From Ectocarpus siliculosus (Eukaryota; Sar; Phaeophyceae; Ectocarpales; Ectocarpaceae), in assembly GCA_000310025.1 (NCBI GenBank), contig FN649741.1:4811705-4875704 (forward strand): a DNA stretch of 64,000 nt. Direction: 5' to 3'. Shown piece by piece: positions 53,902 to 64,000 of this stretch. Made by a program: the position numbers and the translations under genes. Under the pieces are notes generated by a model that worked only from the letters and a program-made list of their open reading frames with translations, did not search any database and was not told the origin of the DNA. The stretch's first letter is position 1. Each line of letters starts with the position of its first letter.

Positions 53902-53934
53902 GGTTAAGGTTAGGGTTAGGGTTAGGGTTAGGGT
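53902..53934 (+). repeat. Interstitial telomere-type repeat (TTAGGG)n
   Basis: GGTTAAGGTTAGGG followed by further TTAGGG units, 33 bases in all, sits in unit 1 of the duplication. Unit 2 lacks it at the equivalent point (between GTGAGTGTCTTC and TCGAGAG, about 55577). Confidence 0.95.
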
Positions 53935-54476: not shown

Positions 54477-56480
54477 AGTACCTTCATTTGTCCTTACTGA
54501 TCCAACACTTGACGCGGTCGATTCCCGTGGTCACAGGCTAACTTGCCATAAAGAGGCACGCTAAAACAAACTGGCCACGAAAGGTCCGCAAGTCAATAAA
54601 AATCAACGACAGATATTCTTTGGAACGGGGTGTTTACTTGCCATGTCTATGACTCTGCAAGTTTCACAATTAATTTTGAAGCTTTTCTGAAGCTAATTGA
54701 AACAGTAGTGTGAAGGTTCGATATCCGTTCGGTGAGGAATCAATCGCAAATCATGACCCGTCCCCGAGTTTGAGCAGCTTCCGCCTCCTGGGGCCGGCAA
54801 GAGTCGGCCTTCACTGCTGTACCTTGTCTGTTTCGCCATGGGAATGGCCGGTTGATGAACAGCGAAAGAGGGTCCTGCGTGCTGCGTGCCACCACCTTTT
54901 TTTTTTTGCGTTTGTTATTGTGATTTTCTTCCTGAGTGACAGTTGTTGTACACAACATGCGGCTGCTGCTGTACACATACTTGCGGTTGCTGCAGTATAT
55001 GCTCGGAATGTGCTGAAAAGAAAGGTCGTAAGGTTATCGTCTCTGTTTTTTTGGGCTGCACGCGTTGCTCGCGTAGGCGATGCGCGTCTCCTACTTTTTT
55101 CCAGTGTCGTTGTCGGCAGCACAGTTAGTTCAAGAGACAAACAACAACAGACGGTCCGCCTTTTTTTGTTTTGCTGCATGCATGGGTGGTATGCATCGGC
55201 ACGCGTGTTGCTTCCTTGCCTTGAGTCTGCTGCGTAGTCGTAATTTGAGCGATAAGTAAGGTAGATGGCAGCACAATCTTAGATACTACGTAGTGAGGTA
55301 TGATAACCAACAGCTCGTTCGTGCAGCGGTGCGCATCTATGGCGGACGGCAAGCGTATTGCGATAATAGTTCGTCCGTGGTGCTATCGTGCTCTTTTTAG
55401 TTCTCACTTCCTACAACAAGATAGTCCACAGCTCGCACACGGCGACTGACTATATTTGTTTGTTGTTGTGCTTGTTTGCTGTTGCTGAGCCGACATCGGA
55501 TATCGCCGTTCGATACACAACGTGACATCATGTGTGACAGCCTGCGGTGGGCCAGAGGGACGAGAGTGAGTGTCTTCTCGAGAGAGTCAATGCCTTCTCT
55601 TCTCGAGAGAGTCAATGCCTTGTCTTCTCTCCGCTCTCTTCTTTTTGTCTACCTCTCTTTCTCTCTCTCTCGCCTTTCGCCGGTAGGGTCCCAACAACAT
55701 CGAACGTCAACCAACCGCAGTCGTTTCACTTTTTGCTTAGTAAAAGGCTACCCGTGCATCCGGCTGCTGCATGTGAAGCGATGGGCGTTATGCCAAGCAA
55801 TGGACTTGGGCCCTACCTAATATTTGCTCCATATGTAGTGCTATGTGAGAGTTTCCAGCGGTCCGGAGCGAGCGGCGACGGTGCTTTTCTTCTATGCGCT
55901 CTTTTGCCTCCTCCCTGAAGCCTGTCGCGTCTGGCTCGTTTGTTCTCGCTTCTTTCTTTCTTTTGTTTTTCATGCTTTGTTTTTTGGGGTCCCCCGGTTC
56001 CTGTGTGCTCATCGGGCGTCTTCTTGGTGTCTACCTTGATTGTTGCCCGCTGCAAAAATCGAAAGCTTCAGACAGGCAACGCGACGATACTCGTCGAGAT
56101 GCCATACACAATGAATTCATTGCTAATCTGTCTCAGACTCTTTTCTATAATGGAGATGGATTCGTTGTGTCATATTAAGAAGAATAAAAATAAAAAAACA
56201 TCCTGTCGTTACTCTATCGATACCTCACACCCACCCCTACTCACGCCGACGCAGACACAGACAGGCAGACTGAGCTCCTTCGCCTGTGCTGTATCTGTTG
56301 TTCGTGCGTGCTGAAAAATGTACATACAGCAGCAGCTTACAGCAGCAGGAGCTGCTTTTTGCTTGTTTGTACAGCTTTTCCTGCAGGGATGGCTCTTGTT
56401 GTGCGGCAAGTTGCATTGTTTGTTGTTGATGCGGACGAGAGGACGAGAGTGGTAGGCAAAAGCAGTACGTACCGTGTTAA

Positions 56481-59474
56481 AGGGACAGACAGAGTGCCTA
56501 CCGTGTGTACAAGGGAAGACAGTGTGTATGTAGACGTTGCATTTCGTGTTTCCCGAGGATCGGATGTATGTGTTGCTTTTTATTGCGTACCCGCGTCCAT
56601 CACGACCATTATTGCGTAGTGTGTCGGCTAATTAAGGTCCTTCCCGTTCGTGGTGTCAGCACACGCGCAACACGCGACTAAAATAAAAATAAAAAGCTTG
56701 GGACTAGCAACGCCGACGATATTCGTCGGCTTGCTTTCAACAATGCTACTAAACAGACAGGTACGACGTTATAGTACTACTACTGTAGTTTACACCCAGC
56801 AGCAGGAGAGACATAATCTTGAAAATGAAATCTTGAAATATATTTGCCCTTGCTGCAACACTTACTATTACTACTTGGAGATTCGAAAGGAGAGAGATCA
56901 CACCGACCAGCGAAAAAAGTGACAGCATTCAATCTTGAAAGTCGACGCGGATGTCATGTCGTGACTCCTGCTTTCGTTTCATGTCTCATGTGCCAGAAGC
57001 CTCGACCGAGGAATCAATCATATATATGCACATATAGATACGAAAAAGTCGGCCGTGGACTTGCTCGGCATGTACAGTGTTGGTAGTCAAAATAAATATA
57101 CTCCGTATATATATGTATCAGTTCATCACGCAAGGCGGCGGTGGATCTCCTTCTTCTTCTTCTTCTCTCTTGATCGCGATTTTTGGTTTTCAAAGAATGA
57201 ATGGATGGATGGGGGTGCTTGTGCGCAGGCATTGAGAGTGGCCATAGACAATGGTGTGTGACGATGTAATTTTTGCAGCAGGGAGAAAGACAAGCATGTG
57301 ACAGTGTGTGGAGCGAAGAGAGAGGTGGAGTGTTAGAGGGTCGACGGAAAATCATCTTCACTATAGTTTTTGGTCAACCAATCTGATATATCTGATGACA
57401 GGGATCGTCGGAAGTCCTAGGTTCAAAAGAGCGAAGCTTCGCTCTTTATTGTCATCTTCCATAGGTTTGTACGAATACAAATCCGCACCAGGCAGCAAAC
57501 ATCACGAGTTTGTACGAATACAAATCCGCACCAGGCGGCAGTACAACAATGCACTCGGTGAACAGAGGAGATGGGAGTTGGTGTATATATTCCCCCGCTT
57601 TGCATTGACACAGATATGCGCACAGCAGCCGCATCGTCGCCCCACCCCACGATCCAGCCACGATCCATCCATCTACGGTCATGTTTTGAACCAACCGCGA
57701 GAAAGTGGTTCGGCGCCAAAAAGCCATTCGCCCGAGCCGAATGTACACACCTGCTATCAGATCATTCATCCTCTATTAGTTCTGCTTTCTTGGCCGTTGA
57801 TGTTGCTTCCGCAGACAACGCGCGACCGCAGAGCAAATACACTAAAGATACCACAGCAGGGCGCGCGCTGGGTGCTCGGGGACGGGCTGGGGCGGGCGAA
57901 AAGCGACTGGCAGCAGCGAAAGTGGGAGAGAGGAGACGAGCCAAGAACCAACCAGGACTCATACTTGGCAGCAAGCTCCAACCAGGTGGGATGTGTGTGG
58001 GTTACACACTCTAGAACACACGCGAGATAATTAGTGTTCCCTTTCTTCTCAGCAGCAGCGGAGATCGCGCGTTAGGCGAAGTTCGTGGCGGCGGTTCGCC
58101 TGATTGACCAACTACTCGCTCGCTCGTCCCCGCTTGTCCCCCTCGAGGCAGCAGCGCGCCACACCTATACAGCCGTCCGTACGAAGACGGAGACACCAGG
58201 TATTTGGTCGTACCACAGCGCTTGCTCGTATTTCAAAGTTAAAAATTCAGTTTTTCCTGTATGTAATCGCCCTTGCACATTATGTAGATGGTTGCTGTGC
58301 AACACGGGATCGCGCGGGCGGCGTGGAAACGACAGCACGTGTGGCCTCCCTGATGAGCCCTCCCTCTCGTTTTGGCGACAGAGACAGAGACAGAGAGGTC
58401 AGGAAGCTTCGATTCTCGTGTAGCGCAACAGCAGGAATGACGACAGCAAGATGTTGATTATTTTTTCTCCCGCTACAAGTAGCTGTCTCCCGCACACGGC
58501 GCACACGGCGTTGAATGTACATGTGTAGCCACCACATGTGGGCCTTCAGGGCGCTTGTGGCAGTGGCGTGCCAGAGAGTGTCCTCCCTGCATCCCCCGGC
58601 CCGCACCAGGGGGATCGAGTGTGAATTGTGGTCAAACACTGCTTTGGTGCAATGCAATATGTATGTACAACCTGTTAAAACGATGTATTGTTTCTCGTTA
58701 CCTTCAACCCAGCAAGTCCCGCGGACTGGTTCCTGACCTGGTGCACGATGTTTTTTTTTTTAGTCATGTCGGCGGTTTGGCAGGCAAAGAGACCTGATGA
58801 AAACGTCTCCCTTTCCATGCGTAGTCTGCGGCATCATGGCATGTACAGCAGCAGAATGTACGGAGAGCGCATGTATCCTGCAGGCAACCCCCCCGCCCTC
58901 CGCACTAGAAAGATACAGGAGGGTCTGCTGAATGGTGTCTACAGCGATACCATACCATGGAATGTTGCACGTATTCCAGAAAGGCCGATCGTATGTATCG
59001 ACCACAAAGTCAAGCGCGCACGTTTTAGTGTGTACACATAGGGCGCGAAAGCTTGTCTTTGGTCAGTCTCCGAGTTGCTGTCATCATGCAGTTCTGCCCG
59101 CCTATGTATGTCATTGTCGTAGATGGCGACGCCTCGCTGGGTGGTTGTCCTAGGTTATAGACGGATTTGTTTCGTGTCGCAATAGTGCAGTAGGGTGACG
59201 GCGGGGGACCTGAAAAAACGGAAGGCTTGTCAACTTGGGCGCAGTTGACCATTTTTGGAGGCATTGTGGTCATACATGTACTGAAATAACAAAAGGGCGG
59301 ATAGATCAACTTGGATAGATACAAGATAGCTCTTACCACACTGTCTTCCTGAGCCTGTTTCTACCGGGGAGGTATCGCTGAATGCTGCTCGGGAAATCGT
59401 CGAAATACAGGTAGCTTCCGCTGACGCTATGGGTTCATAACTCATCTACCTTAGACTCTCTTTTCTTTACAATA
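56481..59474. other. Spacer with short repeats, no supported gene
   Basis: Contains a perfect 22-base palindrome (57426-57447), a 29 bp direct repeat (57465-57493 and 57508-57536) and GCCGACGA-TAT-TCGTCGGC (about 56712). A 240-codon ORF (57308-58030) and overlapping ORFs in other frames lack recognisable domains. Confidence 0.4.
57465..57536. repeat. 29 bp direct repeat
   Basis: GTTTGTACGAATACAAATCC and the following GCACCAGGC occur identically at 57465-57493 and 57508-57536, with an unrelated 14-base spacer. Confidence 0.9.
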
Positions 59475-60879
59475 CAGTCGACCCCGCTTTAAAGACGCAT
59501 ATCGTTTTTTTTTTTCAAAGCGGGGAACCGACTTTAATATTCCGGGGACGATAACTCACCACCCCCGGGGTCAATGGAGGTGTACCGTACGTCAAAAGAC
59601 GCCCCGTTGCAGCAGGGATACATAGCACGAAACGAGAACACCGTACACTCGGGGGTCACATCGTGGCAGGGGGGGTGAAAGTCGAATGTACTATATAACC
59701 GAGTTTGAAGTTGCTGCACCACTAGCAGTCACACACAACCTCCCGCAATACACTGCTGAGAGGTGGGTAGTGTTGCATGGCAACGTTTTGCTACGACAGC
59801 GTGGTCTCTATGCATTGTTATTGTTATGTTGTCGTTGTCCTCAGGTTGAAAATCTTGCCGACAGCTTTGTCATGCCGCACAAGTCTCAAGCACGGAACAC
59901 GTGCTATGCCACACGCTACCTACCCGACAGGGACAAACATAAACCAGAAATTATCGGGTAAGACAGACAGCACCAGAAACAAAAACAAGACAAACTCGAA
60001 AGAAGAAACAGATTCCATCGCTTTACGCGCCCCTCCCCAAGAAACTGCCCCCTCCACATGTCGCCAAGCGTGGCCTGCACCTCATCCCCCCCCTTCGCTC
60101 TTCGCTTGACTTGAGTTTCATGGGTAAACGAATGCACAGCAGTCCTCGAAAGAAGGTATTATAGTGTTTCGCTGTCCTTCCCCTTCGCGTTAAAAAAAGG
60201 AGCGGCAGTCCTCGAGACGAGAGCGGATGTCGACCTCTGTAAGCGACGTTGTCATGCACGACCCTGGCCTACCGTCGCCGTCTTCCTCATCACTGGACAC
60301 ATCGTCATCGAGGTCTATCTATGTTGTCAAGGTCCTCCTCCTCTACACCCCGCAGCTCAATTTCTATCTCTTCCTCCAACACCTCTGGTCCATCCTCTAC
60401 ACGACGCCACGCTCTTCACTGCCTCACGGACTTGAACCTCAATGTCTTCAGCTGTTATCTTCTGGCAATCGGTGCACTCTCTCTGCTGCCCGTAGCCCTC
60501 CGCTCCGATGCCCCGACCACAAAACGCGTGCATGGATCGCCCGCAAGGGCACAGGTGAACCCCTGACACAAGTTGAGACTTCATCGTGCACGTTGGTTCG
60601 CCACATACTGTCAAGCCGGCGGTGGACGAGCCGCCAGCACACGAGAAGAATCTCTCCATACCCACACGAAGTAGTAGCGCCAGCAGCAGCGGACAGCTTT
60701 CTGTGCTGTCTACACGGGCGTGCTGGTGTGCTGTACCATGAATTTTGGGGGGGGGGGCGCTGTAAAAATTACACCCCCTTCTATGTTATATGTCTGCGGG
60801 GCACCCTGGTTCAGATTTGTTTTCCGTCTTTATCGCGGGGAGTTGACTTAAGCGAGCGTCTTTGAAGCGGGGACGGCTG
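59475..60879. mobile_element. pogo/Tigger-like DNA transposon (Tc1/mariner superfamily)
   Basis: The left end CAGTCGACCCCGCTTTAAAG is the near inverse complement of the right end, which reads CTTTGAAGCGGGGACGGCTG. Both ends are flanked by TA (59473-59474 and 60880-60881). Each end also has a second internal copy of the motif (59517-59533 and about 60834-60850), an arrangement known in pogo-like elements. The length of 1,405 bp and absence of a DDE transposase ORF indicate a deletion derivative or non-autonomous element. Confidence 0.75.
60357..60665 (-). pseudogene. Cys/His-rich zinc-finger-like ORF inside the pogo-like element
   Basis: A 102-codon minus-strand ORF contains regularly spaced Cys and His: CGEPTC, then HLCPCGRSMHAFCGRG, then ECTDCQ. 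This suits a zinc-binding module. Its position inside the transposon suggests a remnant of an element-encoded protein such as the C-terminal zinc finger of a transposase. No catalytic core accompanies it. The start codon is arbitrary and the fragment may not be expressed. Confidence 0.45.
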
Positions 60880-60881
60880 TA

Positions 60882-61740
60882 TGTAGACTTCGTTGTGTCA
60901 TTCATGCATATGTACTTGTATTAACAGAAAAATAAAAAGAGCGGTGACTTTGACGGTATGCACACGATGGTAGTAGTTGCCGCAAGGCGCGGCTACAACA
61001 GCAGTAAACCGAAAAAAAACTCTCGTCATTCATCCCTGTCTTGTGCCTCGCAACTTCCAGCTCCTTCTTGGCATGCCTTTCCCTTGTTCCTTGTTTCTGT
61101 TTTTATCTACGTTGGGAGCGATGCTGTGCACGCGCCGTTGGTTGCGCGGTACGCACGCATGTTTTTGGGTGGATGCCGTGTGCCCATTCCATGTACAACT
61201 TGAATTCAAGTACATACTTGTGGACCGGAGACCAGAACCCAGCACCGCGCCATGTACCCACGGCGGTGAAACCCCAACGAAAGGAAAAAATCGCGGCGCA
61301 AATTTCATATACGTGCGGTACTACCGCTCTACAACAGCACTGGTGTAACGCCTTGTGACATGGCGGCGAAACCGTTTCGCCAAGAAAATGTCCAGGATAG
61401 GTACGTAAGTGATTGTACTCGAACTACGAGATGCCACTGCTGGAATGCCTACCCAGGCAGTACAGTATTCGTGGCAGAACGCAACCTGATGCGATTTCCC
61501 CGAAATGTGCGATAGACGACTCCGCGACCCCTGAGAGCTTTGGATCGGGTTGCACCGCACCCTGCGCTTCGACCTAGTCCGTCGCTCAAACATGTGCGAT
61601 GCACGTTACGGCAATCCAAAAAACTCCTCGCCATTACACATGCATATTCTGATCGAAAATCCCGTTTCTCGTCTCCGGCCTCGGCACCTCGGCAGTCTCT
61701 CGGGGCCGCACGGCCAAGACGGTACGTACGGTATCAGGGG
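60882..61740. other. Spacer and presumed promoter of the NB-ARC gene
   Basis: No supported coding segment. The predicted promoter and leader of the downstream NB-ARC gene lie here. Upstream in-frame codons extend the first exon's ORF to 61540, so a more upstream start or an extra 5' exon cannot be excluded. Confidence 0.4.
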
Positions 61741-64000
61741 ATGGTTCCTTCGCTATTTGACGGCGCGGGCCACGAACATGTCGACGCGGCTCAACGCAGC
61801 GGCGCCGGCGGTGCGGATGTGCGGGACCTAGCCGCCGACTCGCAGAAGCTCGCCATGGCGATGGCCTCCAAGACCCCGGACGCGCAGTACACGGTGCAGC
61901 GGCTCCTGACGGACCACTCACCCGCCGTGAAGGGGATACACGAGTCGCTGCTCGCCATCACCGCAACGATCGACCTCGAGGTGAAGACGAGGAGGGAGGA
62001 GCTGCTGGCCCTGGCGAAGATGTGCACCCTCGTAGCGGCGGCGTCCGTCGTGGTCGTCTCCCAAGAGCACGAGCAGGAACGCGAACGGCGCCAACAACAA
62101 CGACAACGCGAGCAGCAGCGGCATGGGCCGAGCGGGAAGGGGACAACGAGGAGCGCGACCCGCGGCCCCGACAACAACGGCGGCGGCGGCGGCGGCGGTG
62201 GCAGCGAAAGGATAATGCGGTTGCTGGACGTCGGGCCGTTGCGGGAGTGCGTCGAGGCGTTGGGGTTCTTGGTGGGGAGGAAGGATGCAAGACGACGAAC
62301 CCTGCTGCGGAGGTCAGGCAGCAGCAGCATCAAGGACGAGATCGCTGACCTCAACGGCCGCGTGCTTGACGCCGCGAGAGAGATGGGCCTTGCGGGGATC
62401 TTGGCCGTGTTCAAGGGCGTCTTGGTGAGTTTTTTTGTTTTCTTTTGTTTTTCGTGAGGCAACTCAAGGTGGGCAGCTGTTCTTGGGAAATGTAGCAGAC
62501 GTGCAATCAAAGACAGACTACCGGTTCTTTTCTGCAGCGGGTACAATAGAGATGTAGGCGTTTGGTGTTTACGAAAGTACAAGTATTTCGATAGACTATC
62601 GGAACACAACCCCCCATTTGGACGGATGACAAGCAGCAGCTCATGGCAAGGGCCACCCTCTCGTACCCATGCACACGAGGGGAGAATCCGCCGGCCTAGC
62701 GTTGGTATCCGGTCGTCTCCATACGGTTGTGAAGCACATGGGACAGATCGATTGCACGCGCAGTCTATGCGCACCAGAAGTGGGTCCCAGGTGCTTGGAG
62801 ATCCTCCATGCCTGCATGCAGGCAAACTTGCCTCGTTGCTTCCTTACCGTTCTGTGTCAGCGGTACTTTCTTACTGCATGTCCTCCTTGCGTCTACCCAC
62901 GCGAAGACGTTTGCATCACGCCCCCCTCGCTCCGCTGCCTTTTTAACTGTCTTGCTCTACCTGTGGGTCAACGTACATTTTTTTTTTGCCAGGAGGACAC
63001 CGGCGGAGGGTACGGGAGCAGCCCGGGCGGCATTGGCGACGTCCTGACCCAGCAGGAGGTCGACCTGGCGCGTCAGCCGAAGAGATCCCCTCCAAGAGCT
63101 CGAGTCCCATCCTTGCTCCCCCGCCGCGAGAGCTGGCACGTGAGGCGCGAGCTGGTCATCGGCACGGTGCTCCGAAGCCTCCTCTCCGCTCCCGGGGGCA
63201 GCAATAGCCGCGGCGGCAGGAGCAGCAGCAGCGGGGACGGCTACACCGCGGGCGGCGGCGGGCGGGCGGGAGGCGGGGGGAGGGAGGCGGGGCCCCGGGT
63301 GGTGGGTCTTGTGGGAGAGAGCGGGACCGGGAAGACCGCGACAGCGGCGGAGATCGTGCGTGGGCCCGAGGTGCTGGAGTACTTCTCCGACGGCGTGGTC
63401 TGGCTGCCCGTCAACGAGGGCGACGGCGACCGAGACCGCCTCCCGTCCCTGATGAAAAGGCTGGCGAGGATTATGTACGAGGAGGTCGGCATCAAGCACG
63501 GCTTTGGCGCCCCCCCCGTGGGCGGCGCCGGCGCTGGCGCCAGCTCCGATGACCCCTGGGGAGGACCCCGTCATGGCGGCGGGAGCGGGAGCGGTGCTGC
63601 GGACGACGGCGGCGGCGGTGGAGCGGCCTACGTCAAGGCCCTCGTGGAAGGCGGTGGTCAGCAGCAGAGGCAGGCCGCCGTCGCCGACGCCGCCGGCCAC
63701 GGCGGGGCGCGCCAGCGGCGGCCGCTACGGTGCCTGGTCGCCGTGGACAACGTGTGCGAGGCCGAGGTGGTCGCGACGCTCGCGGACACCGGCGTGTGGG
63801 TCCTGCTGACCACCCGCGACGGGGACGTGATCCGCAGGGTCGGGGGCAAGCCGGTGGTGACCGGCCGGCTTCTCGAGACGGATGCCGACTGGGTGCTGAG
63901 GAGGGCGTCGGAGCTGCCGGGCGACGAGCCCCCGCCCGCCGGGGCGAGGGAACTCATCGAGCTTTGCGGCCGGACGGTGCTGGACCTGGCGTTTGTAGGG
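61741..64000 (+). CDS. NB-ARC NTPase (NLR / NB-ARC-TPR type), 5' part, runs off window
   Basis: Exon 1 (61741-62424, donor GTGAGT) and exon 2 (62993 to beyond 64000, acceptor TTTTTTTTTGCCAG) join in phase; 564 residues are visible. Exon 1 is a mainly helical N-terminal domain with an acidic/Gln-rich and Gly-rich linker. Exon 2 holds the nucleotide-binding domain: P-loop GLVGESGTGKT (about residues 333-343), a hydrophobic/acidic Walker B CLVAVDN (475-481), a sensor-like VLLTTRD (498-504), and ELIELCGRTVLDLAFVG at the edge, the position of the GLPL motif of the ARC subdomain. Such STAND NTPases switch between ADP and ATP states and act in immune signalling in plants and animals. Brown algae are known to have families with TPR repeats behind the NB-ARC. 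Repeats, stop codon and later exons are outside the window. The start at 61741 is the best in-frame ATG but unproven. Confidence 0.85.

Follow-up and report, generated by a model that had tools for sequence, protein, structure and literature searches.

Related receptor systems and the gene at the window edge

Brown-algal NB-ARC-TPR genes have already been proposed as a class of candidate immune receptors (accessible part of PMC11378527, citing Teng et al. 2023 and work from 2012). The gene described here lies at the end of the stretch of DNA that was analysed (the window, 64,000 nucleotides, G000:C16:4811705-4875704). It shares with the published genes an NB-ARC domain probably followed by TPRs, clustered copies and an apparent repeat-by-exon clade in the same genome, but differs in that its own group holds NB-ARC and TPRs in one exon, and in its low-complexity inserts and an Asn in Walker B. 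It also resembles the fungal NLRs with HeLo/MLKL-like N-termini, in which, according to the accessible part of PMC9815663, an MLKL-related bundle is followed by a nucleotide-binding domain and repeats, although these fungal proteins belong to a separate lineage. With plant NLRs and Apaf-1 it has in common the order of the NB-ARC motifs, weak sequence matches and, within its clade, an MHD-like motif; it differs from them in that its TPRs replace LRR or WD40 repeats and in the lack of a TIR, RPW8 or CARD match. The fourth relative is the MLKL N-terminal domain (PF22215, MLKL_N), the four-helix domain of necroptosis. It matches six of nine paralogue exon 1s, but is here fused to NB-ARC and not to a kinase, is preceded by an extra N-terminal segment before the bundle, and gives no match in the window copy.

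Our best reading is that the window gene is a further member of the published candidate receptor class. We put at roughly 0.65 the probability that it encodes an NLR-like STAND receptor of a brown alga with an MLKL_N-like, NB-ARC and TPR architecture. Its NB-ARC-TPR identity as such is very probable, a cell-death receptor mechanism stands at about even odds, and its function would be an immune one. The brown-algal host named in the earlier note is supported by the EsV_1_7_cys family: of 880 candidates 150 were scored and all 150 matched, whereas none of 14 control genomes gave a match; we take this family to be expanded in brown algae and thus to mark such a host here. The genome searched comprises 189 Mb in 492 contigs. 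The features of the gene are as follows.

61741..62424, forward strand: exon 1, 228 codons if the earliest in-frame ATG is the start; encodes a helical N-terminal domain that has its homologue in the MLKL_N-like exon 1 of the paralogues
62059..62220, forward strand: Gln/Arg/Gly-rich insert (exon 1 residues 107-160), from the alignment; absent from nine paralogues
62425..62992, forward strand: phase-0 GT-AG intron, read from the sequence; donor position shared by all ten copies, CAG/GA acceptor found in the seven on C21
62993..64000, forward strand: exon 2, frame still open where the window stops; contains NB-ARC as far as the GLPL position (Pfam NB-ARC, 37.8 bits, and paralogues)
63314..63337, forward strand: P-loop GESGTGKT, sequence reading
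63509..63709 (limits approximate), forward strand: Gly/Ser/Gln-rich insert that separates the P-loop from Walker B, from the alignment of the NB-ARC region
63734..63751, forward strand: Walker B LVAVDN with Asn for the second Asp, sequence reading and alignment
63803..63820, forward strand: LLTTRD sensor/RNBS-B motif, sequence reading
63965..64000, forward strand: CGRTVLDLAFVG at the GLPL position; counterpart in the copies on contig C21, CGRVAMD[LV]AFVG

Judged from the sequence, exon 1 and exon 2 form a real two-exon gene that runs past 64000, with 228 and 336 open codons in the window. A phase-0 donor closes exon 1 in all ten copies, window gene counted (GTGAG in nine, GTGTG in one). In a scripted scan a phase-0 CAG/GA acceptor opens exon 2 in 7/7 C21 copies, while no acceptor of this type was found by the script in the copies on C476 and C180; the acceptor of the window gene itself was read by eye, the scanned range having ended before it. 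Chance can be ruled out for the gene because of homology, namely the identity to paralogues, the phase-0 intron at the same place and dN/dS values of 0.23-0.38 in five of five comparisons. The earlier observation of an NB-ARC gene at the window edge is thus confirmed by paralogues, by motifs in the expected order and by a Pfam match over the cut-off.

The NB-ARC core and its paralogues

Direct scanning of exon 2 with Pfam NB-ARC yields E 1.7e-9 and 37.8 bits against a cut-off of 23.5. The P-loop is followed by Walker B, with Asn in place of its second Asp, and then by the sensor, as expected. In the PDB, nine sequences match exon 2 up to E=1, all of them plant NLRs or Apaf-1 and weak throughout (E 0.015 to 0.57). 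The NB-ARC identity claimed before is supported, and the claimed order of P-loop, Walker B, TTRD and GLPL-equivalent motifs is found at 63314-64000. An ATPase of the AAA/ORC type in place of NB-ARC, which the earlier note had named as a refuting outcome should only such matches appear, has a practically negligible probability. AAA_16 and AAA_22 do match exon 2 with E 0.03, both below their own cut-offs, but NB-ARC is over its cut-off, the PDB matches are NLRs and Apaf-1, and the NB-ARC paralogues carry an MHD-like motif and TPRs. We rejected this identity as Pfam and PDB matches favour NB-ARC. A bacterial defence or NCBIfam identity was likewise rejected, with no PADLOC match and weak NCBIfam matches below cut-off, and a sigma-70 promoter scan, a model unsuited to a eukaryote, gave nothing.

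The NTPase core had been described as looking intact. This holds up to the GLPL position, as far as the core is seen; the Walker B Asn, the Gly/Gln-rich insert and the location of ARC2 and MHD where the sequence reads N count against it. Replacement of the second Walker B Asp by Asn is found in the window gene and 7/7 C21 copies (8/8 of the C16/C21 clade) plus one distant gene, and Asp is kept at this position in 15 of the 24 rows of our tree. The Asn may slow or alter ATP hydrolysis in the clade of the window gene. The window gene is absent from the 27 matches listed by a genome-wide NB-ARC search, although the direct scan of exon 2 did find the domain, perhaps because the insert splits the NB-ARC match.

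To be read as lower bounds, like all our genome searches (that with TPR_12 scored 112 of 761 candidates), the matches of exon 2 in the genome number 38 at E <=0.01, exon 2 itself counted. Exon 1 and exon 2 are matched in order in seven C21 copies, near 1.14, 2.91, 2.96, 3.14, 3.14, 3.23 and 3.24 Mb, and in one copy on C476; a C180 copy has the same two-exon order, with a weak match of its exon 1 to the window exon (E 0.1). Over the matched pieces the seven C21 paralogues are 47-65% identical to the window gene. In all five unbroken C21 copies NB-ARC, the MHD-like motif (YRMHD in four, YVLHD in one) and the TPRs lie within one exon of 734-932 codons. One of these, scanned whole, gives 43.8 bits for NB-ARC and 183.5 bits for TPR_12.

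The 27 frames give a tree of 24 rows, since three broken copies, present as six pieces, enter it with one row each. In this tree the window gene joins the C21 copies with a local support of 0.89, and the C21 copies form their own group (0.96). The C476 and C180 copies are paired (0.95), and the remaining rows make up two further groups. NG86 estimates of dN/dS between the window gene and five C21 copies range from 0.23 to 0.38 at dS of 0.98-1.45, which is near saturation, and suggest that the window gene is under purifying selection.

On C21 at 3.13-3.15 Mb we also noted two NB-ARC genes in inverted orientation that duplicated recently; one of them is frame-broken. Their synonymous difference is 0.33 in the TPR part versus 0.07 in the NB part; misaligned repeat units may be the source of some of this gap.

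TPR part, exon arrangement and upstream tract

Directly after 64000, 3345 bases read N. Past this stretch there is a pyrimidine-rich stretch ending in CAG, an acceptor read by eye, followed by an open frame of slightly more than 62 codons and a stop. This frame encodes a single TPR, which matches Pfam TPR_12 with E 3.2e-4 and 21.3 bits, below the family cut-off of 30.1, and scores 43.1 bits against a profile built from the repeats of the C21 clade. Its eight best genomic matches, self excluded, are TPRs of C21 paralogues. We infer that ARC2, MHD and the TPR part lie inside the N stretch and that NB-ARC and the terminal TPR share one transcript. With regard to the repeat C-terminus expected in the earlier note, one terminal repeat is thus seen beyond the N stretch and the remaining array would follow from the paralogues. 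As to the early stop lacking a repeat domain that the note had named as refuting, the first stop seen comes after the TPR, with 3345 bases before this repeat reading N. Ns are also found on the C-terminal side of the C180 copy and of a distant NB-ARC gene ~37 kb further on, on the opposite strand.

The earlier note had linked this locus to receptors that diversify by exon shuffling. Such a gene would carry each TPR on its own in-phase downstream exon and diversify by exon shuffling or alternative splicing. The pyrimidine-rich stretch and CAG ahead of the terminal TPR fit a separate exon, and ~3.3 kb before this repeat reads N. In addition, an NB-ARC gene on contig C6 (3.49 Mb) is followed by seven TPR-like segments (6.0-14.6 bits), the first five spaced 415-435 bp, and seems to have a repeat-by-exon arrangement. 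The C6 gene, however, falls in a different NB-ARC clade from the window gene, and 6/7 of its segments start at profile position 19-20, elsewhere in the repeat than the CAG site here. The nearest relatives of the window gene, in contrast, hold NB-ARC and all TPRs in one exon (5/5 unbroken C21 copies). Shuffled TPR exons are therefore not supported for the window gene and this explanation is unlikely; the group to which it belongs appears not to be of the exon-shuffled TPR type, and only the last TPR of the window gene may have an exon of its own. This limits the exon-shuffling idea, which fails for the nearest relatives: because their TPRs share one exon with NB-ARC, repeat number there must change inside that exon.

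The repeat-rich tract said to lie directly upstream is modest. Direct repeats in 56000-61740 amount to one 33-nt pair, and one element with terminal inverted repeats is present; they give no particular support for rearrangement, and we rejected upstream repeats as its source in view of the one 33-nt pair. The element spans 59474-60880, ~0.9 kb upstream of the gene, and has imperfect 25-base terminal inverted repeats with TA on both sides. Apart from many fragments, three more copies are almost complete and 89-91% identical to it; it was not listed by the direct-repeat scan. At window positions 53902-53934 there is a telomere-repeat-like (GGTTAG)5.5 array inside the contig.

The N-terminal exon and a possible route to cell death

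When the nine paralogue exons alone are made into a profile, exon 1 reaches 67.1 bits with it, compared with 6.5 bits for the best of 1000 shuffles, and the match consists of two blocks on either side of the Gln/Arg/Gly-rich insert. In the Pfam scan MLKL_N matches six of the nine paralogue exon 1s with E 1.2e-6 to 0.027, over the cut-off in one of them, and neither the window exon nor the other three paralogue exons. Pfam gave no TIR, RPW8 or CARD match in the window gene, and a TIR or RPW8 N-terminus was rejected on these grounds. The earlier view of the N-terminus as not TIR-like stands, and the paralogue exon 1s allow it to be classified as MLKL_N-like; the profile search proposed there succeeds with the paralogues and not with the window exon itself. 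A PDB search with a ten-row exon 1 profile placed MLKL at E 0.87 or worse, after unrelated helical proteins. The single-sequence structure model of exon 1 is wholly helical with low confidence (pLDDT 48.3), and that of exon 2 has a pLDDT of 35.6. The MLKL_N-like label suits the clade fairly well but reaches the window copy indirectly, through its relatives, and the N-terminus encoded by exon 1 is a probable cell-death domain. The 2023 work of Teng reportedly distinguishes three clades and an N-terminus that is a four-helix bundle; the clade of the window gene would be included there.

The segment preceding the bundle sets the window copy apart. Its hydrophobic moment is reached by 30% of 500 shuffles, compared with at most 5% in eight of the nine paralogues and 9% in the ninth; by this measure the window copy is without the amphipathic N-terminal segment kept by its relatives. 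In plants, sensor NLRs are without a MADA helix that helpers retain (accessible part of PMC6944444). Since the amphipathic segment is lost in a similar manner, it is conceivable, though speculative, that the lone C16 copy acts as a sensor for which C21 copies serve as helpers. Stramenopiles would then have evolved a sensor/helper NLR network independently, with an MLKL-type domain used in two ways, with a kinase and with NB-ARC-TPR.

The lost segment, the low-complexity inserts and the Walker B change might also point to a degenerate paralogue, and the N stretch within the gene to two genes joined across it; frame-broken copies do exist elsewhere in the genome. Decay or a scaffold artefact of this kind is nevertheless quite improbable, considering the 228 plus 336 open codons, the low dN/dS (0.23-0.38), the conserved splice sites and a terminal TPR from the right clade.

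For the favoured receptor, homology to NLRs suggests a scheme in which the TPR array would detect signs of non-self or damage, upon which NB-ARC would exchange ADP for ATP and oligomerise, and the helical N-terminal domains thus gathered might permeabilise a membrane or signal cell death otherwise. Such switch-to-membrane logic is described for HeLo, MLKL and RPW8 domains, which head fungal NLRs (PMC9815663, accessible part). Each step after the homology, including oligomerisation, membrane action and an immune role of the gene product, is putative for the window gene. The receptor reading is favoured by the NB-ARC domain, the one-exon plan of the C21 copies, the C21-like terminal TPR, the MLKL_N paralogues, genes with MLKL_N plus kinase and the apparent purifying selection. 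Arguing against it are the missing MLKL_N match of the window copy, the poor rank of MLKL in the PDB search, the low-confidence models, the amphipathic loss, the Walker B Asn and the 3345 Ns. Of the earlier interpretation, the NB-ARC domain, brown-algal host and probable TPR C-terminus are supported, and the shuffled TPR exons and upstream rearrangement are not.

Apaf-1 is an NB-ARC protein outside pathogen recognition and provides a precedent for a STAND regulator with a non-immune task, e.g. in development or stress signalling, with the TPRs as a scaffold. We consider it rather unlikely, as receptor turnover would agree with both the MLKL_N-like exons and the cluster of seven related C21 copies, some of which are broken.

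Multicellularity arose in brown algae separately from plants and animals. If an MLKL-type domain is indeed joined to NB-ARC-TPR in this clade, the route from NLR to membrane and cell death seen in plants and fungi would reach the stramenopiles. No report of MLKL-type domains in brown algae was found among the titles and abstract openings listed from one open-licence library.

Searching the genome with MLKL_N gives four loci over the cut-off, one of which is a C21 paralogue. At L082 93-2500 (G000:C10:3221300-3223800) MLKL_N (37.6 bits) is followed by a protein kinase with E 2.6e-36, and at L083 132-2100 (G000:C29:551900-554000) MLKL_N (36.1 bits) is followed by one with E 2.8e-36. Both kinases carry HRDLKSAN and DFG, indicating MLKL-like kinases in a probable brown alga. 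At L084 59-1914 (G000:C485:50300-52400), an MLKL_N frame (32.4 bits) precedes a GRF zinc finger frame (36.2 bits) on the same strand, possibly as separate genes.
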